A stretch of 64,000 nt of DNA, taken from assembly GCF_005938215.1 (NCBI RefSeq), contig NZ_VCPD01000004.1:186001-250000 (forward strand), in the 5' to 3' direction. Of this stretch, positions 4,539 through 55,432 are shown in pieces. The notes beneath the pieces are model-generated. The model ran no database searches, was not told where the DNA came from, and saw only the letters and a program-made list of their open reading frames with translations. The DNA comes from Ruegeria sediminis (GTDB lineage Bacteria; Pseudomonadota; Alphaproteobacteria; Rhodobacterales; Rhodobacteraceae). Made by a program: the position numbers and the translations under genes. Every line of letters starts with the position of its first letter. The first letter of the stretch is position 1.

Positions 4539-5780
4539 ATGGACCGTTCGGCCCGCCTGTTGTCCCCAGTTCTGATCGTCGGCTGCATCATCATCACGGT
4601 CAGCTTCGCGGTGCGCGCCTCGTTCGGGGTGTTCCAGATCCCGATTGCCGACGAATTCGGATGGCTGCGCACCGAGTTCTCGATGGCGATCGCGATCCAG
4701 AACCTGGCCTGGGGAATCGGGCAGCCCATCTTTGCCGCGATCGCCGAAAAGGTCGGCGACCGGCGCGCCATCATTCTGGGCGCGCTGACCTATGCCGCCG
4801 GCATGGTCCTGACAGCTTGGTCGGTCACGCCTTTCGCCCATCAGATGTATGCCTGGCTGGTCGGTTTCGGCATCGCCGGGACCGGCTTCGGGGTGGTTCT
4901 GGCCGTGGTCGGGCGCGCCTCGTCCGACCGGAACCGCTCGATGTCGCTGGCCATCGTCACCGCCGCCGGCAGCGTCGGCCAGGTGATCGGCGCGCCGACG
5001 GCCGAGTGGATGCTGACCTTCCTGCCATGGCAGCAGGTGTTCCTGGTCTTTGCCGCCGTGATCCTGACGCTGGTCCTGACCCTGCCGTTCATGCGCGCCC
5101 CTGCGCCGGCCGACAGGAAGGAACTGGAAGAGAGCATGGGCCAGATCCTGACACGGGCCTTTCGCGATCCGTCCTACACCCTGATCTTTCTCGGCTTTTT
5201 CAGCTGCGGCTACCAGCTGGCCTTCATCACCGCGCATTTCCCGGCCTTCGTGACCGAGATGTGCGGACCGATCCAGCCGGGCGGCGTTCTGCACTCGATG
5301 GGGATCACGACGACCTCGGCGCTGGGAGCCGTGGCGATCTCGCTCGTCGGTCTCTCCAACATCGCGGGAACGCTGGCGGCGGGCTGGGCCGGCAACCATT
5401 TCCCCAAGAAATACCTGCTCGCCGGCATCTACACGGCCCGGACCGTCGTCGCCGCGGCCTTCATCCTGCTGCCGATCACGCCGGCCTCGGTGATCGTCTT
5501 TTCGATCGTCATGGGCTCCCTCTGGCTGGCCACGGTGCCGCTGACCTCGGGCCTGGTCGCGCATCTCTACGGGCTTCGCTACATGGGCACGCTCTATGGC
5601 ATCGTCTTCCTCAGCCACCAGATCGGCGGTTTCCTCGGCGTGTGGCTGGGCGGCCGCATGTATGACCTCTACGGCGACTACACCATGGTCTGGTGGGTCG
5701 GCGTGGGCGTCGGCGCCTTCAGCGCCATCGTCCACCTGCCGATCCGCGAGAAACGCGCCGGCGCGGCGGTGCCCGCCTGA
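4539..5780 (+). CDS. MFS transporter, monocarboxylate/oxalate-formate-like
   Basis: This 413-residue protein has about twelve membrane segments and the major facilitator signature between helices 2 and 3 (AEKVGDRRAI). The N-terminal pattern SFAVRASFGVFQIPI resembles the oxalate/formate and monocarboxylate-like MFS subgroup, so an organic anion is the likely substrate, but the sequence does not identify it. The gene has its own leader of about 150 bases after the divergent zapE start and a ribosome-binding site (CCGGAGA) before ATG 4539. It abuts, tail to tail, a cyclodeaminase-family gene with no gap. Confidence 0.82.
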   Translation: MDRSARLLSPVLIVGCIIITVSFAVRASFGVFQIPIADEFGWLRTEFSMAIAIQNLAWGIGQPIFAAIAEKVGDRRAIILGALTYAAGMVLTAWSVTPFAHQMYAWLVGFGIAGTGFGVVLAVVGRASSDRNRSMSLAIVTAAGSVGQVIGAPTAEWMLTFLPWQQVFLVFAAVILTLVLTLPFMRAPAPADRKELEESMGQILTRAFRDPSYTLIFLGFFSCGYQLAFITAHFPAFVTEMCGPIQPGGVLHSMGITTTSALGAVAISLVGLSNIAGTLAAGWAGNHFPKKYLLAGIYTARTVVAAAFILLPITPASVIVFSIVMGSLWLATVPLTSGLVAHLYGLRYMGTLYGIVFLSHQIGGFLGVWLGGRMYDLYGDYTMVWWVGVGVGAFSAIVHLPIREKRAGAAVPA

Positions 5781-35233: not shown

Positions 35234-36214
35234 CTACGGCGCGATGATGGGCTGAGCGGTCAGCGCACTCGGCACCGGCTTGATCCCGTCGAAGGTCGAG
35301 CCTTCTTCGAACCAGCTGCGCGGTGCAGGCGCGCCCCAAAGTGTCTGACGCTGAGGGTCGGTGAGGGACCACTTGATCGGCTCAAGATCGGGATCGACGG
35401 TCTGATAGTCCGAACAATAGATCTCGATCCGGTGCCCGTCGGGGTCCCGTACGTAAAGGAAGAAGGCGTTGGAAATGCCGTGCCGGCCCGGCCCTCTTTC
35501 GATATTGCCGACATAGCCGGTGGTCGACATCAGGTCGAGCAGGTCGATGATGTTGAGCGGATTCGGCACCCAGAAGGCCGTGTGGTGCAGCCGGGGCCCG
35601 TGGCCGTTCGTGAAGGCCACGTCATGCACACCGCCCTTGCGATGCATCCATGCGGCCCAGATTTTGCCGCTGACGTCATCCTCGGTGTATTCGGTCACCC
35701 GGAATCCGATCTCGTTGTAGAATGCGACTGCGCTGTCCACGTCCGCCGAGAACATGTTGAAATGGTCGATCCTCAGCGGCTTTGCCCCTTTGTAGAGCCT
35801 GTATTTCTGGTGGATCGGCTCCAGCCGCTCCATCTTGACATAGAATTCCAGAGGGATGCCCCAGGGATCGCGGACCCGCAGCGTACGCCCCATATGCGGG
35901 CGTTCGACCCATTCGGTCGGCAGGCCGCGCAAGGCAAAGAACCCCGCCGCCTTGTCGAGATCCGGCTCATCGTACAGCTTGAAACCCAGCACCCCGACTT
36001 CGGCCTTGTCGGCCTGCTCCAGCACCACGCAATGATGACCGCGTTCCTCCATCGCGCGCAGGTAGATGCGCGCGTCGTCCTCGTGGGTGACCTGCAGGCC
36101 CAGCGTGTCGACGTAAAAGGCGCGCGAGGCCCCCAGGTCCGTCACGCTGTATTCAACATGGCTGAGCCGCACGATGTTGAAAGGCGGGTAGAGATTGGGG
36201 GCCGGAACGGGCAT
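35234..36214 (-). CDS. hpaD: 3,4-dihydroxyphenylacetate 2,3-dioxygenase (extradiol)
   Basis: HpaD opens the ring of homoprotocatechuate between C2 and C3. The 326-residue protein is a type I extradiol (vicinal oxygen chelate) dioxygenase with two repeats, related to the Fe/Mn enzymes of Brevibacterium and Arthrobacter and not to the E. coli-type HpaD. Likely metal ligands are His151 (RIDHFN), His210 or His211 (LHHTAFW) and Glu264 (HRIEIY). I chose the ATG at 36214 (MPVPAPNLYP); upstream codons are non-conserved. It is followed by the decarboxylase after 9 bases. Confidence 0.92.
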   Translation of the reverse strand: MPVPAPNLYPPFNIVRLSHVEYSVTDLGASRAFYVDTLGLQVTHEDDARIYLRAMEERGHHCVVLEQADKAEVGVLGFKLYDEPDLDKAAGFFALRGLPTEWVERPHMGRTLRVRDPWGIPLEFYVKMERLEPIHQKYRLYKGAKPLRIDHFNMFSADVDSAVAFYNEIGFRVTEYTEDDVSGKIWAAWMHRKGGVHDVAFTNGHGPRLHHTAFWVPNPLNIIDLLDLMSTTGYVGNIERGPGRHGISNAFFLYVRDPDGHRIEIYCSDYQTVDPDLEPIKWSLTDPQRQTLWGAPAPRSWFEEGSTFDGIKPVPSALTAQPIIAP

Positions 36215-36272
36215 TTGTTCGATCTCCTTGCTATGCCGGGTGAAGCCGGCACGGTGCGCGTTTCCCAGAGTT

Positions 36273-37780
<1,508 letters not shown>

Positions 37781-37784
<4 letters not shown>

Positions 37785-38176
37785 TTCCGGTCCGCCCCTT
37801 TCAGATGCTCGCTGATGGTGCCGGTCTTGGGGGAAAGCTCCGGGTCGATGTCTCGCATTTCCATCGACAATGCGACGGAATGCTCGCGCATCGCCGGGGC
37901 CAGGAAACCCTCGGCCGCGGCAAAAATACGCGCTGCCGCCGCCTTGCGCGTCGCCAGATCGCGCCCGCCGCGAAGCCGCACCGTAATGTCGACATATCCG
38001 TGTTGCGGACCGCCATCCCCGATCGCTGCATGATCCGCACGCATCGCGCGCACCCGGATGCCCGCGACGGGAAAGACGCCGGTTTCGATCGCCGCTTGCC
38101 TCAACGCCTCGCACAGACCGGCCAGGTCCGTGCGCTGCTCCATGTTCGCGGAGTAATCCACGATGATGTGCGGCAT
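37781..38176 (-). CDS. hpaF: 5-carboxymethyl-2-hydroxymuconate delta-isomerase
   Basis: HpaF (HpcD) is a small tautomerase that isomerises 5-carboxymethyl-2-hydroxymuconate. The 131-residue protein begins MPHIIVDYSANME; the proline exposed after methionine removal is the catalytic base of the superfamily. GGPQHGYVDITVRLRGGRD and a C-terminal EMRDIDP are typical of the family. It is the first gene of the catabolic operon, divergent from hpaR with 101 bases between. Confidence 0.93.
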
Positions 38177-38191
38177 GGTTTCCCCCTTTAA

Positions 38192-38203
38192 TTAACATGT
38201 GAA
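38192..38203. promoter_or_regulatory. Candidate HpaR operator between hpaF and hpaR
   Basis: TTAACATGTGAA is a 12-base imperfect palindrome (one symmetric mismatch pair) in the AT-rich part of the hpaF-hpaR spacer, 15 bases upstream of the hpaF start. MarR-family repressors bind such palindromes in divergent promoters, so it may control both directions. It was identified by eye only. Confidence 0.45.
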
Positions 38204-38277
38204 GTATTTTTCTGATTCTGTCAACCGCGACTTCAATCCCCAGTTGCAGCGCAGGACGAATTCGGCAAAGATTCTCT

Positions 38278-38712
38278 ATGCCCAGCGACTTGCCGCTCAC
38301 CTCCCGATCCTTGCCAATCGCGCTGCTGCGCGCCCGTGAAAGCGTCATGGGGCCGATCCGGACGATGCTTGCCGATGTTGACATCACCGAACAGCAATGG
38401 CGGGTTTTGCGGGTGCTTCAGGAAGAAGGGCCGCAGGATCCGACCCGGATCGCCCATCGCGCCTGCCTGCTCTTGCCGAGCCTGACGCGCATCCTGCAGA
38501 AGCTTGGTGAAAAGGGGCTGATCGACCGGCAGCCGGATCCCGATGACCGCCGCAAGCAGATCATCCGCATCACCGACGACGGCCTGAAGATCATCCGGAA
38601 CAACCTGACGGCCAGCATTCAGGCTGCCGAGCGGATCCGGGCGCATCTTGGGCCGGAGCGGTACGAGGCCCTGCTGGACCTGCTGAACGAATTGAACGAC
38701 ATGGACAACTGA
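38278..38712 (+). CDS. hpaR: Homoprotocatechuate degradation operon regulator HpaR (MarR family)
   Basis: The 144-residue protein is a MarR-type repressor: N-terminal LTSRSLPIALLRARESVMGPIR is characteristic of HpaR, followed by the winged helix with ITEQQWRVLRVLQEEGPQDPTRIA and the wing LIDRQPDPDDRRKQIIRIT. In E. coli HpaR represses the meta operon until pathway substrates bind. It is divergent from hpaF, the first gene of the operon, as expected for its target. Confidence 0.93.
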   Translation: MPSDLPLTSRSLPIALLRARESVMGPIRTMLADVDITEQQWRVLRVLQEEGPQDPTRIAHRACLLLPSLTRILQKLGEKGLIDRQPDPDDRRKQIIRITDDGLKIIRNNLTASIQAAERIRAHLGPERYEALLDLLNELNDMDN

Positions 38713-41532: not shown

Positions 41533-42117
41533 ATGCATAAACTGATGATGGGGTTGGCCAGAACATTGGCCATCATCGGCGGGATCGTCCTGAGCGCCCT
41601 GATCCTGCTGACCTGCCTGTCCATTCTGGGCCGGCTGCTGAACGGGTTCTTTCACGGCGGCTTCATGCAGAGCGTCGCCCCCGGTTTTGCCGACTGGGCG
41701 ATCGGAATAGGCGTGGGGCCTGTCAACGGCGACTTCGAACTGGTCGAAGCCGGGGTGGCCTTCGCCATCTTCTGTTTCCTGCCGCTCTGCCAGATCACGG
41801 CGGGCCATGCGTCGGTCGACATCCTGGCGAACACCTTTCCCAAGGGCGTGAACCGCTTCCTGCGCATGGTGACCGAAATCGTCTTCGCCGCGGTTCTGGT
41901 CCTGATCGCGTGGAAGCTGTTCGACGGGATGCTGAGCAAGAAGGAATACGCCGAGACGACCTTTCTGCTGCAGTTCCCGATCTGGTGGGCCTATGCGCTC
42001 AGCTTCGTAGGGTCCCTGGCGGCGGCGATCGTCGGCATCTACATGGCCGGCGTCCGCACCTATGAATTCTTTACCGGCCGCATCCTGATCTGGGACGGCG
42101 TGGAGGCGACCCATTGA
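41533..42117 (+). CDS. dctQ: TRAP transporter small permease DctQ
   Basis: The 194-residue membrane protein has four predicted helices, as expected for DctQ, with VDILANTFPKGVNRFLRMV in the central loop. It lies 72 bases after dctP and overlaps dctM by four bases (ATTGAGCG region; dctM starts with TTG or a nearby codon at 42114). With DctM it forms the sodium-driven permease. The insert around residues 38-62 makes it slightly longer than typical members. Confidence 0.88.
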   Translation: MHKLMMGLARTLAIIGGIVLSALILLTCLSILGRLLNGFFHGGFMQSVAPGFADWAIGIGVGPVNGDFELVEAGVAFAIFCFLPLCQITAGHASVDILANTFPKGVNRFLRMVTEIVFAAVLVLIAWKLFDGMLSKKEYAETTFLLQFPIWWAYALSFVGSLAAAIVGIYMAGVRTYEFFTGRILIWDGVEATH

Positions 42118-43613
42118 GCGCGCTTGAAATCGGAATCGCGTCATTCCCGGCGCTGATGGTGCTGATCTTTCTGCGGGTGCCGATCGGGCTGGCCATGTTC
42201 CTCGTTGGGCTCGTTGGCCTGGTCCTGGTGACCGACGGTACCCAGGTGGCCTTCGCCCGCCTCAAGAACGAGACCTACACGACCTTTTCCAGCTATTCGC
42301 TGACCATCGTGCCGATGTTCCTGCTGATGGGGCATTTCGCGACGCTGGGCGGCATGTCCAACGCGCTGTTCAAGGCCGCCGAAGGCTGGCTTGGCCATCG
42401 CCGGGGCGGCGTCGCCATGGCTTCGATCGGGGCCTGCGCCGGGTTCGGCGCGATCTGCGGCTCGTCGCTGGCCACGGCGGCCACGATGGGCCGGGTCGCC
42501 TTGCCCGAACTCCGGCAATACGGCTATGCGGGCGGGTTTTCGACCGCCACTCTGGCCGCGGGCGGCACGCTGGGCATCCTGATCCCGCCCTCGGTGGTGC
42601 TGGTGATCTACGCGATCCTGACCGAGCAGAACATCGCCAAGCTGTTTCTCGCCGCCTTCATCCCCGGCATCATGGCCGCCGTAGGCTATGTGATCGCCAT
42701 TTCCATCTACGTGCGGCTCTATCCGGAAAGCGCGGGCACGCGCCCGGCGGTTCCCTATTCCGAACGTTTCGCGGCGTTGCTGCAGGTCTGGCCGGTGCTG
42801 CTGGTGTTCGGGCTGGTGGTGGGCGGCATCTACCTTGGCTGGTTCACCCCGACCGAAGGCGCGGCGGTGGGCGCATTCGGCACGGGCGTGATCGCCTTTT
42901 TCAATGGCGGCCTGACGATCTCGACGTTGGCAGACAGCTTCATCGTCACGGCCCGCTCGACGGCAATGATCTTTTTCATCGTGCTGGGCGCGGGGTTCTA
43001 CAACGGCTTCCTCGCGCTGACGCAGGTGCCGCAGGAATTGTCGAACTATGTCGTCAGCCAGGGACTATCGCCCTTGATGGTGCTGGCGCTGATCCTGTGC
43101 TTCTACCTTGTCTTCGGCTGCCTTATGGACAGCCTGTCGATGATCCTGCTGACGATCCCGATCTTTTTCCCGGTGATCTCGGCGATGGATTTCAACCTGA
43201 TCTCGCTTCCGGCCATGCAGGCCGAAGCGGCGATGGACGTGCTCAAGAACGGCGTACCCGAGGGCATGGGCGCTGAAATGCTTGCCTCGATACAGGAGGC
43301 GATCGCCAGCGGCGCGGAGCTGACCCGCGAGCAGATGAAGGAACTGGGCATCCGCGTCACGCAGGGCATGGCCAACCGCATCGAGGCCGAGCATGTCGCG
43401 ATCTGGTTCGGCATCCTGGTGCTGATCGTGGTCGAGGTGGGGCTGATCACGCCGCCGGTCGGGATGAACCTGTTCATCATCAACGCCATGGACCGGGCCA
43501 CGCCGATGATCGAGACCTACAAGGCGGTCATGTTCTTCGTGGCGTCGGACATCATCCGGGTCATCGTTCTGGTCGCCTTCCCGGCGATCACGCTGTTTCT
43601 TCTGCCGGGCTGA
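42114..43613 (+). CDS. dctM: TRAP transporter large permease DctM
   Basis: The 499-residue protein has about twelve to fourteen membrane segments and TRAP large-subunit signatures (SFPALMVLIFLRVPIGLAM, ICGSSLATAATMGRVALPE, GGTLGILIPPSVVLVIYA, and the C-terminal LITPPVGMNLFIINA). An insert of about 50 mostly hydrophilic residues (AEAAMDVLKNGVP to TQGMANRIE, about 370-425) separates two late helices; many aromatic-linked DctM proteins have such an insert. The annotated first codon is TTG at 42114, overlapping the dctQ stop. Confidence 0.9.
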   Translation: MSALEIGIASFPALMVLIFLRVPIGLAMFLVGLVGLVLVTDGTQVAFARLKNETYTTFSSYSLTIVPMFLLMGHFATLGGMSNALFKAAEGWLGHRRGGVAMASIGACAGFGAICGSSLATAATMGRVALPELRQYGYAGGFSTATLAAGGTLGILIPPSVVLVIYAILTEQNIAKLFLAAFIPGIMAAVGYVIAISIYVRLYPESAGTRPAVPYSERFAALLQVWPVLLVFGLVVGGIYLGWFTPTEGAAVGAFGTGVIAFFNGGLTISTLADSFIVTARSTAMIFFIVLGAGFYNGFLALTQVPQELSNYVVSQGLSPLMVLALILCFYLVFGCLMDSLSMILLTIPIFFPVISAMDFNLISLPAMQAEAAMDVLKNGVPEGMGAEMLASIQEAIASGAELTREQMKELGIRVTQGMANRIEAEHVAIWFGILVLIVVEVGLITPPVGMNLFIINAMDRATPMIETYKAVMFFVASDIIRVIVLVAFPAITLFLLPG

Positions 43614-45500: not shown

Positions 45501-45605
45501 TAAATCCATCCGGGATGCATTATTGCCCGCAGGGGACAGACGCGAGCGGGACGGCAGGAGGACCAACCGCTCGCAGCCCCTGCGCGTCACGTGGGAGGAG
45601 TGAAT

Positions 45606-47135
45606 ATGAGCGGAAACGCCGCGCTGTATTTTGTGGATCGCCATGTGCGCGACGGGAACGGCGACCGGCCGGCATTCCGGGAAGCGGCCGGGCAGAAACG
45701 GGCGATGACCTATGGCGAACTGGCGGACGCCACAAACCACGTCGCCGGCGCACTCGGCCGCGCCGGGATCCCGCGCGAGGCGCGCGCGGCGATGCTGGTT
45801 CTGGACCAGTTGGAGTTCCCCCAGATCTTCTGGGGCTGCATGAAGGCGGGCGTGGTGCCGGTTCCGCTGAACACGCTGCTGACGACGCAGGTCTACGACG
45901 TGATCCTGAACGACAGCCGCGCCTCCTGCCTGTTCGTGTCCGAAGAGCTTTGGCCGGTCGTGCAGCCCGCCGCCGAGGCATCGCCGCACCTGAGCCATAT
46001 CGTCGTGATCGGCACGGCGCCGGAAGGCAGGCAAAGCTTTGCGGATTTCGTGTCGGGCGCTACGCCGATGCCGGCAGTCGCTGCGTCCGAGGATGACGTT
46101 GCCTTCTGGCTGTATTCCTCGGGATCCACTGGCCAGCCCAAGGGAGTGCGGCACGTCCATGGCAGTCTCAAGGCCACCGCCGATGCCTACGGCGCGCGGG
46201 TTCTGCAGATCGAGCCGGACGACGTGGTGTTTTCAGCGGCCAAGCTGTTCTTCGCTTACGGGCTGGGCAATGCCATGACCTTTCCGATGTCCGTGGGGGC
46301 CGAAACGGTGCTGTTCAACGGCCGACCCACTCCCGACACCATGGCCGAGATCATTGCCGCCGAAAAACCCACCATCTTTTGCGGCGTTCCGACGCTTTAC
46401 GCCGCCATGGTTGCGCAGCTGGAAAGCCGGGGCGTTCCCGACGTGAAACTGCGCCGATGCATCTCGGCTGGGGAGGCGTTGCCTGAAGAGATCGGGCGCG
46501 GCTGGCGGCGGCTTTGGGGCGTGGACATTCTCGACGGGGTCGGTTCGACGGAAATGCTGCATATCTTTCTGTCCAACGCTCCGGGCGACGTGGCCTATGG
46601 CACGTCCGGCCGCCCGGTCCCGGGCTACGAAGTGCGCCTCGTGGACGAGGACGGCAAGGATGTGGGCGCCGGCGGGCTTGGCGAGCTTCTGGTGCGCGGC
46701 GCTTCGGCGGCGGACGGATACTGGAACAAGCGCGACAAGAGCCGTGCCACGTTCGAGGGCGAATGGACCCGGACTGGCGACAAGTACGAGCTGGCGGCAG
46801 ACGGGCGCTATGTCTATTGCGGGCGGACCGACGACATGTTCAAGGTCTCGGGCATCTGGGTTTCCCCCTTCGAGGTGGAACAGGCGCTGGTATCACACCC
46901 GGCCGTACTCGAGGCGGCGGTCGTCGCCGCGCGCGATCAGGATGGGCTGGAAAAACCCAAGGCCTACATCGTGCTGAAACAGGCCAAGGCCGACGGCCTT
47001 GCCGACGAGTTGCGCGAGTTCGTCAAGGACAAGGTCGGCAAGTGGAAATATCCCCGCTGGATCGATTTCGTCGAGGATCTGCCCAAGACCGCAACCGGCA
47101 AGATCCAGCGATTCAAACTGAGGGAGGAACCGTGA
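45606..47135 (+). CDS. bclA: Benzoate-CoA ligase family protein
   Basis: The 509-residue enzyme activates benzoate to benzoyl-CoA with ATP, the entry step of the box pathway. Features include the AMP-binding motif LYSSGSTGQPKGVRH, the benzoate-CoA ligase stretch FFAYGLGNAMTFPMSVGAE, DGVGSTEMLHIF, and the catalytic C-terminal lysine in PKTATGKIQRFKL. ATG 45606 follows GGAGGAG at ideal spacing. The stop overlaps the hydrolase start by one base (TGATG), so the genes are coupled. Confidence 0.94.
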   Translation: MSGNAALYFVDRHVRDGNGDRPAFREAAGQKRAMTYGELADATNHVAGALGRAGIPREARAAMLVLDQLEFPQIFWGCMKAGVVPVPLNTLLTTQVYDVILNDSRASCLFVSEELWPVVQPAAEASPHLSHIVVIGTAPEGRQSFADFVSGATPMPAVAASEDDVAFWLYSSGSTGQPKGVRHVHGSLKATADAYGARVLQIEPDDVVFSAAKLFFAYGLGNAMTFPMSVGAETVLFNGRPTPDTMAEIIAAEKPTIFCGVPTLYAAMVAQLESRGVPDVKLRRCISAGEALPEEIGRGWRRLWGVDILDGVGSTEMLHIFLSNAPGDVAYGTSGRPVPGYEVRLVDEDGKDVGAGGLGELLVRGASAADGYWNKRDKSRATFEGEWTRTGDKYELAADGRYVYCGRTDDMFKVSGIWVSPFEVEQALVSHPAVLEAAVVAARDQDGLEKPKAYIVLKQAKADGLADELREFVKDKVGKWKYPRWIDFVEDLPKTATGKIQRFKLREEP

Positions 47136-47956: not shown

Positions 47957-48403
47957 GTGGAACTGACCCTTCCCGCAAACGCCTACGTGCCGGGCCGGAC
48001 CGCAAGGCACCCCGAGGACACCTTTGCCGCACTTTGCGGGACGGTTGCGCAAGGGATGAACATCCGCGACATCGCCGCTTCCGACGCATGGCGCGCGGGA
48101 TGGGTTCTGTTGGATCGCGGCTATTTCTGGGAAGCCCACGAGGTCTGGGAACCGGTCTGGCTGCACCTGCCGCCAAACTCGGCCGAGCGCCAGTTCGTGC
48201 AGGCCTGCATCCAATTCGCCAACGCCTGCCTGAAAGAGCGGATGCAGCGGCCCGCGGCCGCGCTGCGGCTATGCGGCCTGGCGCGGGAGCGGCTTGCCGC
48301 AGCCGGATCGGGATCCGGATCGCGGATCATGGGGATCGATACGGCGGAACTCCACTCGCGCCTAACTGCGCTGCGTGAGCGACTCAGGAACACTGCAACA
48401 TAA
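47957..48403 (+). CDS. DUF309 domain-containing protein
   Basis: The 148-residue protein contains the DUF309 signature LLDRGYFWEAHEVWEPVWL followed by helices ending in ANACLKERMQRPAAALRL. The family is all-helical, of unknown function, and usually encoded by genes of diverse context. The start is GTG 47957, three bases after the hydrolase stop, so it is probably translated with it. Its last codons overlap a candidate BoxR operator. Confidence 0.8.
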   Translation: MELTLPANAYVPGRTARHPEDTFAALCGTVAQGMNIRDIAASDAWRAGWVLLDRGYFWEAHEVWEPVWLHLPPNSAERQFVQACIQFANACLKERMQRPAAALRLCGLARERLAAAGSGSGSRIMGIDTAELHSRLTALRERLRNTAT

Positions 48404-48494
48404 TGCATACTTAATCCCGAGGCAAATCTTGCATTTTAAGATCATTTTTCCAAATCCTTGATTTTAAACGACACTATGTATGCATTATTTTGCC
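48394..48494. promoter_or_regulatory. Candidate BoxR operators upstream of boxC
   Basis: TGCAACATAATGCA (48394-48407) is TGCA-N6-TGCA and overlaps the DUF309 stop. A second near-site TGCA-N6-TGCC is at 48481-48494, and single TGCA motifs lie between. The 159-base gap before boxC is strongly AT-rich, as expected for a promoter region, so a separate BoxR-controlled promoter of boxCBA-boxR is likely. Confidence 0.65.
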
Positions 48495-48562
48495 AGCCAA
48501 GTCTTGCCGCCCATGACTTAACATACTAAAGTGCGGCCTGCCGCCAAAGTGAGGATCCCGGA

Positions 48563-50224
48563 ATGTCCCAGCGCATCGACTTTCAGACCGACCCCACTAG
48601 ATACCGCCACTGGCGCGTCGAATATGACGGCGAGGTCGCCAACCTCTACATGGATGTCGACGAAAAGGGCGGACTGTTCCCCGGCTACGAACTGAAACTG
48701 AACTCCTACGACCTCGGGGTCGATATCGAACTGGCGGATATCGTGCAGCGAATGCGCTTCGAGCATCCCGAGGTGAAGGTCGTGGTGATGCAATCCGGCA
48801 AGGACAAGGTGTTCTGCGCCGGGGCCAACATCCGGATGCTCGGCGGGGCCAGCCATGCGCACAAGGTGAACTTCTGCAAGTTCACCAACGAAACCCGCAA
48901 CACCTTCGAGGCGGCCGAGGCGGATTCGGGTCAGAAATACATCGCGGCCGTCAAGGGTTCCTGCGCCGGCGGCGGATACGAACTGGCGCTGGCCTGCAAC
49001 CATATCATTCTGACCAATGACAGCACCTCGTCGGTGGCCCTGCCCGAGGTGCCGCTGCTGGCAGTGCTGCCGGGGACCGGCGGTCTGACCCGGGTGACCG
49101 ACAAGCGCAAGGTGCGGCGCGATCTGGCCGACGTGTTCTGCTCGGTCGAAGAAGGCGTGCGCGGTCAGCGCGCGGTCGATTGGAAACTGGTGGACGAGAT
49201 CGCCCCGAACTCGAAATTTGACGAGGTGGTGCAGGAACGCGCCCGCAAGTTCGCCGCGGCATCGGCAAAGCCGTCCGGCCTGAAAGGTATCGTGTTAGAG
49301 CCGATTTCCCGCAGTTTCGGCGAGGATGGGTCGGTCATCTATTCCCTGGTCGAAGTCGCGGTCGACAGGGATGCAGGCCGGGCCACCATAACCGTCAAGG
49401 GCCCCGACGAGGACGCCCCCGCCGACATGGATGCGCTACAGTCGCAGGGGTCGCAGGCATGGATCTTGCGCCTTGCCCGGGAACTGGACGACGCCATCCT
49501 GCACCTTCGGCTGAACGAGCGCGAACTGGGCCTGATCGTGTTTCAGACGCAGGGCGATCCGGTTCGGGTTCTGGCCCATGAAAAGCTGCTCCTCGACAAT
49601 TCGGGCAACTGGCTGGCGAACGAGATCCTGCAATACTGGAAACGGGTCCTTAAGCGGATCGACATGACATCACGCAGCCTCGTGGCGCTGGTCGAGCACG
49701 GATCCTGCTATGCGGGCGTTCTGGCGGAACTGCTGTGGGCGGTGGACCGGTCCTACATGATGCTGGAGGAGTTCGAAGGCGACAACCGCCCGCTGGCGTC
49801 GATCACGCTGAGCGACGGCAACTTTGGCACCTACCCGATGGGCAACGACCTGTCGCGTCTGGAAACACGGTTCTGGGGCGACCTCGACGCGGTGGAAACC
49901 CTCAAGGAACATGTGGGCAGGCCGCTCGAGGCGGAAGACGCCGAGGAGCTTGGGCTGGTCACCTATGCCTATGACGACATCGACTGGGAGGACGAGGTGC
50001 GGATCTTCCTCGAGGAGCGCGCCAGCTTCTCGCCCGACGCGATGACGGGAATGGAGGCCAACCTGCGGTTCGCCGGTCCCGAAACGATGGAAACCCGGAT
50101 CTTCGGCCGCCTGACCGCCTGGCAGAACTGGATCTTCCAGCGCCCGAATGCGGTGGGTCCCGAAGGCGCCTTGCAGCGTTACGGCACCGGCCTGCGCGGC
50201 GAATACAACATGGAACGTGTGTGA
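48563..50224 (+). CDS. boxC: Benzoyl-CoA-dihydrodiol lyase
   Basis: BoxC hydrolytically opens the ring of 2,3-epoxybenzoyl-CoA, releasing formate and 3,4-dehydroadipyl-CoA semialdehyde. The 553-residue protein contains two crotonase-like domains in tandem (first one with AGANIRMLGGASHAHKVNFCKF and CAGGGYELALACNHII), which is the BoxC architecture; length matches. It starts 159 bases after DUF309 with its own AT-rich promoter region and is followed by boxB after 30 bases. Confidence 0.96.
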   Translation: MSQRIDFQTDPTRYRHWRVEYDGEVANLYMDVDEKGGLFPGYELKLNSYDLGVDIELADIVQRMRFEHPEVKVVVMQSGKDKVFCAGANIRMLGGASHAHKVNFCKFTNETRNTFEAAEADSGQKYIAAVKGSCAGGGYELALACNHIILTNDSTSSVALPEVPLLAVLPGTGGLTRVTDKRKVRRDLADVFCSVEEGVRGQRAVDWKLVDEIAPNSKFDEVVQERARKFAAASAKPSGLKGIVLEPISRSFGEDGSVIYSLVEVAVDRDAGRATITVKGPDEDAPADMDALQSQGSQAWILRLARELDDAILHLRLNERELGLIVFQTQGDPVRVLAHEKLLLDNSGNWLANEILQYWKRVLKRIDMTSRSLVALVEHGSCYAGVLAELLWAVDRSYMMLEEFEGDNRPLASITLSDGNFGTYPMGNDLSRLETRFWGDLDAVETLKEHVGRPLEAEDAEELGLVTYAYDDIDWEDEVRIFLEERASFSPDAMTGMEANLRFAGPETMETRIFGRLTAWQNWIFQRPNAVGPEGALQRYGTGLRGEYNMERV

Positions 50225-50254
50225 GGGGCGCTGGCCCTTTGTCGGAGGAAAGAC

Positions 50255-51706
50255 ATGCTCGACCTGATCAACGTAAGCTACGACACCCAGATCCCGAACA
50301 ACGTGGGGCTGAGCCAGGACAAGAAGGTGCTGAAGGCGCTGGAGAAATGGCACCCCGGCTACATCGACTGGTGGAACAAGCTGATCCCGCAGAACTTCCA
50401 GGAATCGCTTGTCTACCTGCGCACCGCCGTCAGCGTCGACCCCAAGGGCTGGGCCAAGTTCGACTACGTGAAGATGCCCGAATACCGGTGGGGCGTGCTG
50501 CTGGCCCCGCAGGTCGAGGAACGGGTGATCCCCTGCGGCGAACATGCCGGTCAACCGGCCTGGCAGGAGGTTCCCGGCGAATACCGCAACCTGCTCAAGC
50601 GCCTGATCGTCATTCAGGGCGACACCGAACCCGCCTCGGTCGAGCAGCAGCGGTTGCTGGCGCTCACGGCACCGTCGCTTTATGACATGCGGAACCTGTT
50701 CCAGGTGAACGTCGAAGAGGGACGCCACCTCTGGGCCATGGTCTATCTGCTGCACAAGTATTTCGGCCGCGACGGCCGGGAAGAGGCCGACGACCTGCTG
50801 CGCCGCCAGTCGGGCAGCGAGGAAGCGCCGCGCATGCTGGGCGCCTTCAACGAGGAAACGCCGGACTGGCTGTCCTTTTTCATGTTCACCTATTTCACCG
50901 ACCGCGACGGCAAGATGCAGCTCGAGTCGCTGGCGCAATCCGGTTTCGATCCGCTCAGCCGCACCTGCCGCTTCATGCTGACAGAAGAGGCGCACCACAT
51001 GTTCGTCGGCGAAACCGGCGTCGGCCGGATCGTCCAGAAAACCTGCGAGGTGATGAAGGAGAACGGCATCGAAGACCCCTTTGACGTGGGAAAGATCCGC
51101 GATCTGGGCGTGATCGATCTGCCGACGGTCCAGAAGAAGCTGAACCTGCACTACACGCTGTCGCTGGACCTGTTCGGGCAGGAGGTTTCGACCAACGCCG
51201 CAAACGCCTTCAACGCGGGGATCAAGGGTCGGTACATGGAAAACCGGCTGACCGACGACCACCGGCTGCAGCAGGACACCTATACCGTCTGGGACCTGGA
51301 AGACGGCAAGGCCGTGCAGAAGGAGGTTCCGGCGCTGACCGCGATCAACATGCGCCTGCGCGACGATTACACCAAGGACGCCGCAGGCGGCGTCGGCCGC
51401 TGGAACAAGATCATCGAGAAATTCGGGATCGACTTTGAACTGAAGCTGCCGCACGAGGCGTTCAACCGCAAGATCGGCGTCTTCGCCGACAAGCTGTTCG
51501 ACCCCGACGGCAAGGTGGTCAGCGGCGCGGATTACGACAAGGGCCTGCCGGAATGGCTGCCGACCCATGCCGACGGCGATTTCATCCAGTCCCTGATGAA
51601 GCCCTGCTACGAGCCGGGCCAATACGCGCGCTGGATCGCGCCGCCCAAGGTGGGCATCGACAACAAGCCGGGCGATTTCGAATACGTGAAGCTTCACATG
51701 GCCTGA
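50255..51706 (+). CDS. boxB: Benzoyl-CoA 2,3-epoxidase subunit BoxB
   Basis: BoxB is the oxygenase that epoxidises benzoyl-CoA using electrons from BoxA. The 483-residue protein has paired diiron motifs: E155-x2-H158 (EEGRH) and E244-x2-H247 (EEAHH). Start MLDLINVSYDTQIPNNVGL and overall length match BoxB closely. It lies 30 bases after boxC and about 120 bases before a small cysteine protein gene. Confidence 0.96.
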   Translation: MLDLINVSYDTQIPNNVGLSQDKKVLKALEKWHPGYIDWWNKLIPQNFQESLVYLRTAVSVDPKGWAKFDYVKMPEYRWGVLLAPQVEERVIPCGEHAGQPAWQEVPGEYRNLLKRLIVIQGDTEPASVEQQRLLALTAPSLYDMRNLFQVNVEEGRHLWAMVYLLHKYFGRDGREEADDLLRRQSGSEEAPRMLGAFNEETPDWLSFFMFTYFTDRDGKMQLESLAQSGFDPLSRTCRFMLTEEAHHMFVGETGVGRIVQKTCEVMKENGIEDPFDVGKIRDLGVIDLPTVQKKLNLHYTLSLDLFGQEVSTNAANAFNAGIKGRYMENRLTDDHRLQQDTYTVWDLEDGKAVQKEVPALTAINMRLRDDYTKDAAGGVGRWNKIIEKFGIDFELKLPHEAFNRKIGVFADKLFDPDGKVVSGADYDKGLPEWLPTHADGDFIQSLMKPCYEPGQYARWIAPPKVGIDNKPGDFEYVKLHMA

Positions 51707-51824
51707 AACCACAAACCCGAGCCGGGTGCCGCAAACGGTAACATTTCGTGACGAAAACCGGATTGACGGACTCACCTATTGTCCTGTTGGCTGGACCCGG
51801 CTTGTTCAGAAGGGGAGACCCGCA

Positions 51825-52001
51825 ATGCAGATCAACCGCTCCAAGGCCGAGACACCAAAGCTGGTGGCCCTCGCCGGTCAGGTATCCGCGCTGCAAGGCC
51901 CCTGTGTCGGCTGTTCCGATTGCGTCGGTCTGTGCACCGCCCTGATCGACACGCTGGTTCTGCCCGACATGATCCTGACCAAGAAACGCGAGAGTTCATG
52001 A
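51825..52001 (+). CDS. 58-residue four-cysteine small protein coupled to boxA
   Basis: This short gene is preceded by a good ribosome-binding site (AGGGGAGA) and ends with TGA overlapping the boxA ATG (ATGA), so the two are translated together. Its middle contains Cys27-x2-Cys30-x2-Cys33-x3-Cys37 (CVGCSDCVGLC), the [4Fe-4S] ferredoxin pattern, in an otherwise short basic-plus-hydrophobic protein. It could be a small iron-sulfur or assembly protein for BoxA, or a remnant leader of boxA. No family is known to me. Confidence 0.65.
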   Translation: MQINRSKAETPKLVALAGQVSALQGPCVGCSDCVGLCTALIDTLVLPDMILTKKRESS

Positions 52002-53182
52002 ACCAGCCGCTCAAGCAGCACCTGATCGACCCCGAAATCTGCATCCGTTGCTACACCTGCGAGATGACCTGCCCCGAGCAGGCCATCGAGCATGACGACA
52101 TGAACGTCGTTGTCGACGTGTCCAAGTGCAAGTTCTGCATGGATTGCATCCCGGTCTGCCCCACCGGCTCGATCGACAACTGGCGTGTGGTCACCGAACC
52201 CTATTCGCTCGAGGATCAATACGGCTGGATGGAGTTGCCTGAGCAGGAGGACGTGGCCGGGGACGAAGGCGGGCTGGAGGCGTTGGATGACGCCATCGCC
52301 GCCCTGCTGGCCGAGGCGCACAAGGGCGCGGGGGGCAAGGCCAGGGCGCCCGCGACGGCGTCAAAGCCGACGGTCAACATGTATGGCCTGGGCAAACCGG
52401 CGGACGCCAAGGTGGCCGGAAACTTTCGCCTGACGGCCGAGGACAGCGACAGCGACGTCCGCCACATTATCCTCGATTTCGGCTCCCTGCCCTTTCCGGT
52501 TCTCGAAGGCCAGAGCCTAGGGATCATCCCGCCCGGCACGGACGAAAACGGCAACGCGCATCTGCCGCGGCTCTATTCCGTATCCAGCCCCCGCGACGGC
52601 GAACGCCCCAACTTCAACAACCTCTCGCTGACCGTCAAACGCGAGGAAAAGGGGCTATGCTCCAACTATGTCTGCGACCTGAAACCGGGCGACACGGTCA
52701 AGGTGACCGGCCCGTTCGGCGCGACCTTCCTGCTTCCATCAGACCCTAACGCGCAGCTTTTGATGATCTGCACCGGCACCGGCTCGGCCCCGTTCCGCGC
52801 CTTCACCATGCGGCGCCAGCGGGAATACCCGTCGCTCAAGGGTTCGCTGATGCTGGTCTTCGGCGCCCGCAGGCCGCAGGAACTGCCCTACTTCGGACCG
52901 CTGAAAAAGGTGCCCGAAAGCTTCATGGCCAAGCATTTCGCCTTCTCCCGGCAGGAAGGAGAGCCGAAGCATTATGTGCAGGACAAGCTGCGGCAAGAGG
53001 CCGAACAGGTCGGCGAACTGCTGAGGAACCCCGACGGCCACATCTACATCTGCGGCCTGAAGGCGATGGAACAGGGTGTCGAAGAGGCGTTGAAGGACAT
53101 CGCACGCGGATTGGGACTGGATTGGGGTGAGTTGCGCGACCGCATGCGCGATGAGGGCCGCTATCACGTGGAGACCTACTGA
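51998..53182 (+). CDS. boxA: Benzoyl-CoA 2,3-epoxidase subunit BoxA (reductase)
   Basis: BoxA passes electrons from NADPH to BoxB. The 394-residue protein has two [4Fe-4S] motifs at the N-terminus (Cys15, 18, 21, 25 and Cys44, 47, 50, 54), a linker rich in Ala/Glu/Lys (about residues 85-120), then a ferredoxin-NADP reductase domain with FAD-binding RLYSVSS and MICTGTGSAPFRAF. The start at 51998 fits the conserved N-terminus; it overlaps the small protein's stop. boxR follows after 99 bases. Confidence 0.95.
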   Translation: MNQPLKQHLIDPEICIRCYTCEMTCPEQAIEHDDMNVVVDVSKCKFCMDCIPVCPTGSIDNWRVVTEPYSLEDQYGWMELPEQEDVAGDEGGLEALDDAIAALLAEAHKGAGGKARAPATASKPTVNMYGLGKPADAKVAGNFRLTAEDSDSDVRHIILDFGSLPFPVLEGQSLGIIPPGTDENGNAHLPRLYSVSSPRDGERPNFNNLSLTVKREEKGLCSNYVCDLKPGDTVKVTGPFGATFLLPSDPNAQLLMICTGTGSAPFRAFTMRRQREYPSLKGSLMLVFGARRPQELPYFGPLKKVPESFMAKHFAFSRQEGEPKHYVQDKLRQEAEQVGELLRNPDGHIYICGLKAMEQGVEEALKDIARGLGLDWGELRDRMRDEGRYHVETY

Positions 53183-53250
53183 CACCGGCCGAGCATCCGT
53201 GCCGCGAACGTCAATTTCGATTGCCCGCACGGGGCGGTCGGCGTAGTTTG

Positions 53251-53264
53251 TGCATTATTTCACA
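53251..53264. promoter_or_regulatory. Possible BoxR half-site upstream of boxR
   Basis: TGCATTATTTCACA has one TGCA and a degenerate second element with the right 6-base spacing, ending 17 bases before the boxR start. It could allow autoregulation. The match is weak. Confidence 0.35.
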
Positions 53265-53281
53265 TAAGCGACACGGGAAGC

Positions 53282-54199
53282 ATGAGCGAGATCACCAATT
53301 TCAGGGGCGACAGCACATCGCAGCGCGGCTCGGACCTTGCCGATGCGTCCGTGTCGGCCCTGATCGCCCGTGTCGGCGAACGGGTGCGGGAAGCGCGCGA
53401 GCGGCGCGGAATCCCGCGCCGTGTGCTGTCAGAAATCTCGGGCGTTTCCCCGCGCTATCTTGCGCAACTGGAAGCAGGCGAGGGAAACATCTCGATCGGC
53501 CTGCTGCAACGGGTCGCCATTGCGCTCGATCACCGGATCGAATGGCTGGTGGGCGAGGACGATCCGTGGAGTTCCGATGCCCTGCGTGTCGCGGACCTGT
53601 TCCGGGCGGCCCCAAGCGACGTGCAGCAGACGGTGCTGCGTGCCCTGAGCCCGGAACCGGACGAAGTTCTGCGCGCCCGCAGGATCTGCCTCGTCGGCCT
53701 GCGCGGCGCCGGGAAATCCACCCTTGGGAGGCTCCTGGGGCAGGAACTGGGCCTGCCTTTCGTCGAACTCAACGACGGCATAGAAGAGCAGGCCGGAATG
53801 CCCGTGGGCGAGGTCATGGCGCTCTATGGGCAGGAAGGCTACCGCAAGCTCGAAGCGCAGACCGTCGAGCGGGTGGTCGCGACCCATGACTCGTTGGTTC
53901 TCGCCGTGGCAGGCGGCATCGTCGCCGAGCCGGACACCTACAACACCCTGCTCAGCCATTTCCACACCATCTGGCTGCGCGCCTCGCCGGTCGAACACAT
54001 GGACCGGGTGCGGGCGCAGGGGGACGAGCGGCCGATGGCCGGGAATCCCGAAGCGATGGAGCAGCTCAGGTCGATCCTGACCAGCCGCGAGGCCTTGTAC
54101 GGCAAGGCGCAGGCGCAGCTGGACACCTCGGGTCAGACCGTCGAGACGTCGCTGGCGCAACTCAAGTCCCTGATCGAAGAGCGCGGGTTCCTGAACTGA
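53282..54199 (+). CDS. boxR: BoxR-type transcriptional regulator (XRE HTH + shikimate kinase-like)
   Basis: The 305-residue protein has an N-terminal XRE helix-turn-helix (RGIPRRVLSEISGVSPRYLAQLEAG, about residues 42-66) and a C-terminal shikimate kinase-like domain with Walker A GLRGAGKST at residues 139-147. This is the architecture of BzdR and BoxR, which bind benzoyl-CoA and release repression of benzoate genes. It ends the plus-strand box locus, and several TGCA-type candidate sites lie in that locus. It converges on the ycaQ-like gene. Confidence 0.95.
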   Translation: MSEITNFRGDSTSQRGSDLADASVSALIARVGERVREARERRGIPRRVLSEISGVSPRYLAQLEAGEGNISIGLLQRVAIALDHRIEWLVGEDDPWSSDALRVADLFRAAPSDVQQTVLRALSPEPDEVLRARRICLVGLRGAGKSTLGRLLGQELGLPFVELNDGIEEQAGMPVGEVMALYGQEGYRKLEAQTVERVVATHDSLVLAVAGGIVAEPDTYNTLLSHFHTIWLRASPVEHMDRVRAQGDERPMAGNPEAMEQLRSILTSREALYGKAQAQLDTSGQTVETSLAQLKSLIEERGFLN

Positions 54200-54217
54200 C
54201 TTCGACGGGTCTCCGGG

Positions 54218-55432
54218 TCACTTGGGTTCGCGTAGCCAGCCATCGTCAAACAGGACCCTGTCCATCCCGGTGAAGCGGCGAACCCGCTCCAATTCGGCCT
54301 CGAGCCGCCGGGTGCGGGCTTGCGACCACTTGACCGACCGCTCAGGCCACAGCGCGCGCACCCTCAGTTCTCCGTCATCCCGATGCGCCTTCATGTCGAT
54401 CCGGCCCACAAGCTTGTCACCTTCGAGCAGGGGGAAGACATAGTAGCCGTAGACCCGCTTCGGTTCGGGGACGAAAACCTCGATCCGGTAGTGGAATCCG
54501 AACAGTCGCTCGGCCCGCTTGCGGTCGCGCAGCGCCGGATCGAAGGGGCTGAGAACGCGCATCCGGCCCGGCGGTGGGGCAAGGCGCGCGACCCGTTCCC
54601 CCACGTCGGCCCGAGTGAAGACCTTGCGCGGGCGGCCATCGGCGCATTCGATCTCGGCCCATTCGATATCGCCGCTCGCCAGCGCCCTTTCGCACCAAGC
54701 CTTCGCCTCGGCCGGAGTGACCGTATCCCAGAACGCCGCCAGTTCCCCGGATGTGGCAAAACCCAGCCGGTCCAGCGCTGCGTTGCACAGCCAATCCACC
54801 GTCGCCTGCTCATCACACGGCGCGGCGCCGGGGCACAGATGCGCCTCGATCACCCGTTCGGTCAGGTCGTAGCGTTTCTGGAACCCCTCGCGCCCGATGA
54901 CGGTCAGCGCACCGGTGCGCCACAGGTATTCCAGCGCCGTCTTGGACGGGTGCCAATCCCACCAGCCGCCCGAGCCCTTCTTCTCGTCCCGGCCCACATC
55001 CGAGGAACTGACCGGCCCGTGGTCGCGGATGTGCTGCAGAACCGACTCGAACCGCGCCTCGAACCCGTCGCGCCGCCAGTTCTTCCAGCGTCGGGCCAGA
55101 AGATCGGCGTCGCGCTGAAACCGCAGATGCCAGTGGCGGAAAAACTCCATCGGAATGACGGCGGCATCATGCGTCCAATGCTCGAACAGGCCACGATCCC
55201 TTTCGTAGAGCCGCTTGAGGTTGTCGGAGCGGTAAGTCGGCCGGCGCGCGAACAGGATCATGTCATGCGCGCGGGCAATCGTGTTGATGCTGTCCACCTG
55301 AACAAAGCCGAGCCGGCGGATCAGGTCCTGCAGGTGTTCACCCTTGGCCGCCCCGGCCGGCGGTTCGACCAGGGCGTGCCGGTCCAGGAACAGCGCCCGC
55401 GCGGCCCGGTTGTCCAGTCGCCGAACCGGCAC
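54218..55432 (-). CDS. Winged helix DNA-binding protein, YcaQ crosslink-repair glycosylase family
   Basis: The 404-residue protein matches the HTH_42 (DUF1006) family: LGFVQVDSINTIARAHDMILFAR, the central winged-helix arrays, and the C-terminal YGYYVFPLLEGDKLVGRIDMKA. Members such as AlkX (YcaQ) in E. coli and AlkZ in Streptomyces unhook DNA interstrand crosslinks. A DNA glycosylase role is likely by family. The gene starts 4 bases after the LacI-type regulator's stop on the same strand, and probably shares its transcript. Confidence 0.88.
   Translation of the reverse strand: MPVRRLDNRAARALFLDRHALVEPPAGAAKGEHLQDLIRRLGFVQVDSINTIARAHDMILFARRPTYRSDNLKRLYERDRGLFEHWTHDAAVIPMEFFRHWHLRFQRDADLLARRWKNWRRDGFEARFESVLQHIRDHGPVSSSDVGRDEKKGSGGWWDWHPSKTALEYLWRTGALTVIGREGFQKRYDLTERVIEAHLCPGAAPCDEQATVDWLCNAALDRLGFATSGELAAFWDTVTPAEAKAWCERALASGDIEWAEIECADGRPRKVFTRADVGERVARLAPPPGRMRVLSPFDPALRDRKRAERLFGFHYRIEVFVPEPKRVYGYYVFPLLEGDKLVGRIDMKAHRDDGELRVRALWPERSVKWSQARTRRLEAELERVRRFTGMDRVLFDDGWLREPK

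Follow-up and report, generated by a model that had tools for sequence, protein, structure and literature searches.

The box locus and gene X

The stretch of Ruegeria sediminis DNA analysed here, a window of 64,000 nucleotides, carries a box (benzoyl-CoA epoxidation) locus whose features are collected in Table 1. Upstream of the box genes, and on the same strand, stand genes for a benzoate-CoA ligase, an alpha/beta hydrolase, a DUF309 protein, an acyl-CoA ligase and a TRAP transporter. A 4HBT-type thioesterase gene, which is common in Rhodobacteraceae box clusters and in many loci separates boxA from boxR, is not found in the cluster of the window.

Between boxB and boxA lies a small gene, and the protein family of its product is called X in this work. 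The plus-strand translation of 51825-52001 is MQINRSKAETPKLVALAGQVSALQGPCVGCSDCVGLCTALIDTLVLPDMILTKKRESS, followed by a stop codon, with cysteines at positions 27, 30, 33 and 37 and no further cysteine. The motif GGGGAG stands a few bases 5' of the ATG, and the stop codon TGA (51999-52001) is fused with the boxA start codon ATG (51998-52000) in an ATGA overlap. The sequence-only reading had described a small gene with a ribosome-binding site, these four cysteines and the ATGA overlap, flanked by boxB and boxA; translation and sequence bear out the former, and the TIGR03225 and TIGR03224 scores in Table 1 the latter. X is single-copy in the window's genome (E<=0.001). None of the model libraries searched has a curated entry for the family, which appears to be undescribed; a search of the open-access PMC literature brought up no article that deals with a small protein of a box operon.

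Table 1. Features of the box locus and its surroundings, with coordinates on the window
Feature	Coordinates	Strand	Basis
TRAP transporter large subunit, dctM	42114..43613	+	TIGR00786 over cut-off
Benzoate-CoA ligase	45591..47135	+	TIGR02262 743 bits (cut-off 375)
DUF309 gene, between alpha/beta hydrolase and boxC	47957-48403	+	Matched in many Rhodobacteraceae box clusters
boxC	48563..50224	+	TIGR03222 947 bits (cut-off 712)
boxB, di-iron benzoyl-CoA epoxidase	50255..51706	+	TIGR03225 924 bits (cut-off 499)
Conserved non-coding block upstream of X, ACGGTAACATTTCGTGAC...CGGATTGAC	51735..51770	+	Alignment of 6 loci
Gene X, 58-residue protein with C-x2-C-x2-C-x3-C (stop included in coordinates)	51825..52001	+	Translation, family conservation, selection
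boxA, reductase carrying two Fer4 motifs; first 4 nt shared with the end of X	51998..53182	+	TIGR03224 538 bits (cut-off 459); Pfam Fer4 and NAD-binding
boxR-type regulator, HTH and shikimate-kinase-like domain	53282..54199	+	NF006015 392 bits (cut-off 204); Pfam

Conservation and selection

By using the X sequence of the window, a similarity search matched 30 of 198 Rhodobacteraceae genomes, the window's own included, and ten named relatives with a match belong to Ruegeria, Seohaeicola, Leisingera, Phaeobacter and Pseudophaeobacter. Within the fetched pieces, boxB was seen in 26 of the 30 matched genomes and not in L007, L010, L024 and L029. All four cysteines were found in 27 of the 30 matches, which had been collected by similarity and not by motif; the other three were two frame-broken copies (G143, G009) and a spurious match with an internal stop (G093), which was dropped. 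A profile of 36 rows then matched 73 of 394 Rhodobacteraceae genomes at E<=0.001, and 67 of 394 after the removal of six genomes whose matches were all weaker than 1e-5 (G001, G087, G167, G927, G964, G1035). In these genomes, 65 of the 67 X copies have an open frame with the four cysteines, G009 and G143 again being the frame-broken ones. Because the profile rows were partly picked by their cysteine pattern, the invariance of the cysteines within the profile is partly built in, and the unbiased counts are 27/30 and 65/67. The pattern used to collect copies barred a proline after the fourth cysteine, and G062 and G873 were added to its yield; G943 and G847 represent the same locus and were counted once. 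Residue conservation was also high at Gly29 (70 of 76 X copies), Gly35 (75), Pro47 (75) and Leu51 (71). As to the two broken copies, that of G009 (L061) lies beside an intact box cluster and that of G143 (L090) in a genome without boxB.

When 25 X coding sequences were compared, all 300 pairs had pN below pS, and both TGC and TGT occur among the copies at every one of the four cysteine positions. The dN/dS values of the window's X against ten box-linked homologues ranged from 0.10 to 0.46. A hitch-hiking non-gene was rejected on the strength of this selection. Comparing synonymous and nonsynonymous changes across relatives had been put forward together with the gene, and a loss of cysteines and frame had been named as what would speak against it; frame and cysteines proved to be kept. 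X is a protein-coding gene whose frame and cysteines are conserved.

Linkage to boxB and boxA

Of 61 boxB-linked copies, 40 share exactly 4 nt with boxA (a distance of -4 nt) and 46 lie within -20 to +30 nt of it; in five the pattern located no boxA downstream. In G080 and G866, boxA is on another contig and X adjoins boxB; in G936 (L200), boxA is present by tblastn and was missed by the pattern; and boxA was not found in G1033 (99% complete) or G873 (75% complete), both of which have a boxB-linked X. The position between boxB and boxA and the tight coupling, first noticed in the window, are thus those of most copies. Three genomes that are 96-99% complete (G139, L079; G056, L080; G1033, L211) have boxB and no boxA over the cut-off, and another reductase may serve BoxB in them.

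Of the 67 X genomes, 59 carry boxB. Among 46 Rhodobacteraceae genomes with boxB, an intact ORF follows boxB in 27, a broken one in 1 and none in 17, and 1 was unreadable owing to a contig end. Outside the Rhodobacteraceae, an X-type ORF was found beside boxB in 0 of 46 loci, as judged on the fetched piece and by a pattern that bars proline after the fourth cysteine, and a profile search of 289 genomes of the class, 54 of which have boxB, gave a match only in the window's own genome. A subunit would be expected wherever BoxA and BoxB are and to be lost together with them. X is absent from 17/46 boxB loci inside and 46/46 outside the Rhodobacteraceae, and seven of the 67 X genomes have an intact copy yet no boxB (ten genomes when the further searches described below are included). 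That X belongs to BoxA or BoxAB as such, as had been implied, is not supported by these counts: X is genuinely tied to boxA, yet not to it alone.

Mapped onto the BoxB tree, presence and absence of X call for 13 changes, at least 4 of them forced by supported branches, and 0 of 500 shuffles were as low; the broken X of G009 was scored as present. Because the outgroups are without X and its state is clustered on this tree, we read X as gained within the Rhodobacteraceae and then lost repeatedly, with transfer as an alternative.

X in genomes without BoxAB

Eight of the 67 X genomes are without boxB, seven with an intact X (G106, G193, G1032, G891, G978, G870, G915) and one with a broken copy (G143). 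Other searches added three box-less genomes with an intact X, namely G844 (Leisingera sp. ANG59), G848 and G851. None of the ten box-less genomes with an intact X has a boxA over the cut-off, the absence of boxA and boxB being less sure in G848 and G851, which are 75% and 85% complete. Within the genus of G106, X occurs in three of five genomes, of which G852 has a box cluster and G106 and G851 are without boxB.

The surroundings of box-less copies are often remnants of a box locus. A relative of dctM lies directly 5' of X in several box-less genomes: dctM or dctPQM is followed by X in G193, G848, G106 and G851, and the order is dctPQM-X-thioesterase in G844 and dctPQM-DUF309-X in G915. X follows a FAA hydrolase gene in G1032 and an HpaI-like aldolase gene in G870, the latter with a convergent thioesterase gene, and it adjoins an AlkZ-like gene in G891. 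In G193 the gene downstream of X, also AlkZ-like, is convergent. The 4HBT-type thioesterase gene still adjoins X in the box-less locus L038 (5205-5693). In G978 (L205, 2558-5250), X comes immediately after a cluster that encodes an ABC/TupA-like tungstate transporter and an HTH-PBP regulator. A second X copy was observed in G1026 (L210, C48:30900-41000, motif near 5098), a genome with a full box cluster, where it comes after dctPQM and an acyl-CoA ligase gene and before boxR.

On the X tree, which was built from 58 columns and has many open forks, the box-less copies require 10 changes, at least 4 of them forced by supported branches, a number no lower than in shuffles. Relative to their nearest box-bearing relatives, the ten box-less copies differ at 184 of 461 non-cysteine sites and at 0 of 40 cysteine sites, a divergence that is not datable to after the loss of box. 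Ratios were near-relaxed in some box-less comparisons (G193/G848 0.64, G915 0.70, G891 0.51; not computable for G870). Since a small gene from the middle of the block repeatedly survives the loss of the block, a role outside BoxAB is suggested, and the persistence of X without BoxAB points to a second, putative client.

Resemblance to iron-sulfur proteins

The X protein of the window stays below all Pfam cut-offs (Fer4_18, 16 of 27 bits; Fer4_2, 12.5 of 24.5 bits), and no NCBIfam model is over its cut-off. Because the best Pfam E-values of the other 32 members are only 0.002 or weaker, we infer that these probably fall under the Fer4 cut-offs as well. The weak profile matches of X are mostly to iron-sulfur proteins; in a profile search of the PDB, PsaC and ferredoxins made up most of the matches listed, and all five alignments examined span the cysteine stretch only. 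In common with the [4Fe-4S] ferredoxins of the Fer4 clan (PsaC, Fer4_2, Fer4_18), X has the C-x2-C-x2-C-x3-C spacing and matches weakly over it. In contrast to them, it has this motif once and not twice, its fourth cysteine is followed by proline in 2 of 77 copies, and the window protein has no remote Cys-Pro and is under every Pfam cut-off. The label "ferredoxin-like" given to it at the outset therefore holds for the spacing of the cysteines, and not for the Pfam Fer4 scores or for the number of motifs, which is one and not two.

BoxA shares with X the operon and the overlap of the two genes, and it contains two motifs with the spacing of X, whereas X is without a FAD or NAD domain. Homology to the ferredoxin region of BoxA was considered and rejected, as hhalign aligned 16 columns at 3.8% probability. 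AlphaFold, run on 11 sequences, gave a poor model (pLDDT 54, pTM 0.25). A PHROGs search matched 1 of 36 X members (E 0.0087), and tblastn of plasmid records with the window's X gave no match. In the accessible part of the published description, benzoyl-CoA epoxidase is made up of BoxB and a reductase, BoxA, which has FAD and two [4Fe-4S] clusters and is needed in minor amounts only (PMC4498308); BoxA and BoxB stand alone there, in keeping with the earlier statement that no subunit of this type belongs to the described BoxAB.

The upstream block

The block between boxB and X is conserved in Ruegeria and Leisingera relatives, box-less Leisingera included (6 aligned loci), and its full pattern stands upstream of 4 of 75 X copies. 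When the window was scanned loosely for the block, nothing above chance came up. The block contains no sigma-70-like site, the only such site in 51600-52100 being inside the X gene, and no Rfam match was found in 48000-54500. A regulatory RNA or promoter reading was rejected on the lack of an Rfam match, the position of the sigma-70-like site within the gene and the 4/75 count. The block itself is a possible promoter or operator, and because it is conserved, also in box-less Leisingera, there are hints that X has a promoter of its own.

Candidate function and alternatives

The reading we favour is that X is a small, perhaps dimeric [4Fe-4S] redox or reactivation helper, probably co-translated with BoxA and not exclusive to BoxAB, to which a probability of about 0.4 is given. 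In this reading X would belong to the Rhodobacteraceae box locus as a small, soluble accessory protein of the iron-sulfur kind, its cysteines presumably binding a [4Fe-4S] cluster. In two-cluster ferredoxins, three cysteines of a motif hold one cluster and the fourth holds the other. Having a single motif, X would thus depend on a second X molecule or another protein, and it probably acts as a dimer or upon a partner. By passing electrons to an iron centre, it may prime or reactivate a ring-attacking enzyme or one of aromatic-CoA metabolism; the target would be the di-iron site of BoxB where present and, elsewhere, another oxidation-prone iron enzyme, and such a helper would be useful yet dispensable. 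Small ferredoxins of the XylT type, encoded in some dioxygenase operons, prime or reactivate iron enzymes, and XylT itself is a [2Fe-2S] plant-type ferredoxin that reactivates extradiol dioxygenases. By analogy, X could likewise be a small putative redox protein inside an aromatic oxygenase operon and a dispensable helper, although it differs from XylT in motif and size. Counted for this tentative assignment are the cysteine spacing, the weak matches mostly to iron-sulfur proteins, the intact copies (65/67), the 4-nt overlap (40/61), the company of boxB (59/67), the clustering of X on the BoxB tree and the box-less persistence with unchanged cysteines (0/40); counted against it are the lack of a family model, PDB alignments confined to the cysteine stretch, the hhalign result with BoxA, the pLDDT of 54, the rarity of the proline (2/77), the published two-protein description of BoxAB and the boxB loci without X (17/46).

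We place a helper of this kind before a cluster carrier, and the carrier before a role as sensor or leader peptide or in binding another metal. As an iron-sulfur cluster carrier or repair factor, X would supply or restore oxygen-labile clusters, namely the two [4Fe-4S] clusters of BoxA where there is a boxA and those of other proteins elsewhere. Probable co-translation with boxA, the gene of an iron-sulfur subunit, argues for such a factor, and the persistence of X without BoxAB suggests other clients; however, X stays by boxB and not boxA in G080 and G866, G1033, in which boxA was not found, has an intact copy next to boxB, and many bacteria have BoxA homologues yet no X beside boxB; a carrier is rather unlikely. 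Lower in our ranking, and quite improbable, is an extension of the helper reading in which X is the founding member of minimal half-ferredoxins: about 55 residues, with a [4Fe-4S] cluster only as a homodimer or in the cleft of a partner, X would act as a reactivase that moves between oxygen-activating iron enzymes, recruited into the Rhodobacteraceae box operon and kept after loss of the epoxidase for a second enzyme encoded elsewhere.

More doubtful than either is that X senses metal or redox state, or serves as a leader peptide, and so tunes translation or expression of boxA and its neighbours. CutF in Rhodobacter is a cysteine-bearing leader peptide upstream of operon genes, and X resembles leaders of this type as a small cysteine-containing ORF directly 5' of an operon gene. 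The 4-nt overlap with boxA in 40/61 copies, the upstream block conserved in close relatives and the retention of X beside dctPQM or boxR after box loss are in line with it, but selection acts on the whole X protein and not on one end only, and there is no Rfam element. A leader should always be followed by the gene it controls, and X, unlike CutF-type leaders, persists where it has no downstream gene running in its own direction, as in box-less G193, whose convergent next gene leaves nothing translationally coupled to X. Binding of zinc or copper(I) instead of an iron-sulfur cluster, in a structural or metal-buffering protein, ranks below even the sensor: four close cysteines in a small protein and the failure of every iron-sulfur family model would suit it, whereas the weak matches are mostly to iron-sulfur families, and the glycines of x-G-C and x-G-x-C, kept in 70/76 and 75/76 copies, would fit a tight cluster loop. 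The least probable of these alternatives is that X serves BoxAB only and that box-less copies are recent leftovers. The boxB found in 59 of 67 X genomes, the broken X of G143, which has no boxB, and the near-relaxed ratios given above for G193/G848, G915 and G891 speak for it; against it, ten intact box-less copies are scattered across the X tree (of 10 changes, counted on few columns, supported branches force at least 4), and X survives in mid-locus while the adjoining boxA, boxB and boxC are gone.

Significance

Benzoyl-CoA epoxidase has so far been described, in the part of the source available, as a two-protein system of BoxB and BoxA (PMC4498308). A third, conserved and probably co-translated protein in many Rhodobacteraceae would alter the view of how electrons or clusters are delivered to the di-iron epoxidase. 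Both the role of X in the epoxidase and a putative second client would be testable in a tractable marine model, for example Ruegeria pomeroyi. MS/MS data on R. pomeroyi cells exist that, in the part of the report available, include a benzoate condition (PMC3305630). A predicted tryptic peptide of X, from L035 (strain SZCCDBG043), is ELIDTLVVPDLILTR. Elsewhere in the window, near the TRAP transporter, the minus strand (35234-38387) carries a gene of the glyoxalase/dioxygenase superfamily and one for an aldehyde dehydrogenase, which perhaps constitute a separate ring-cleavage route.
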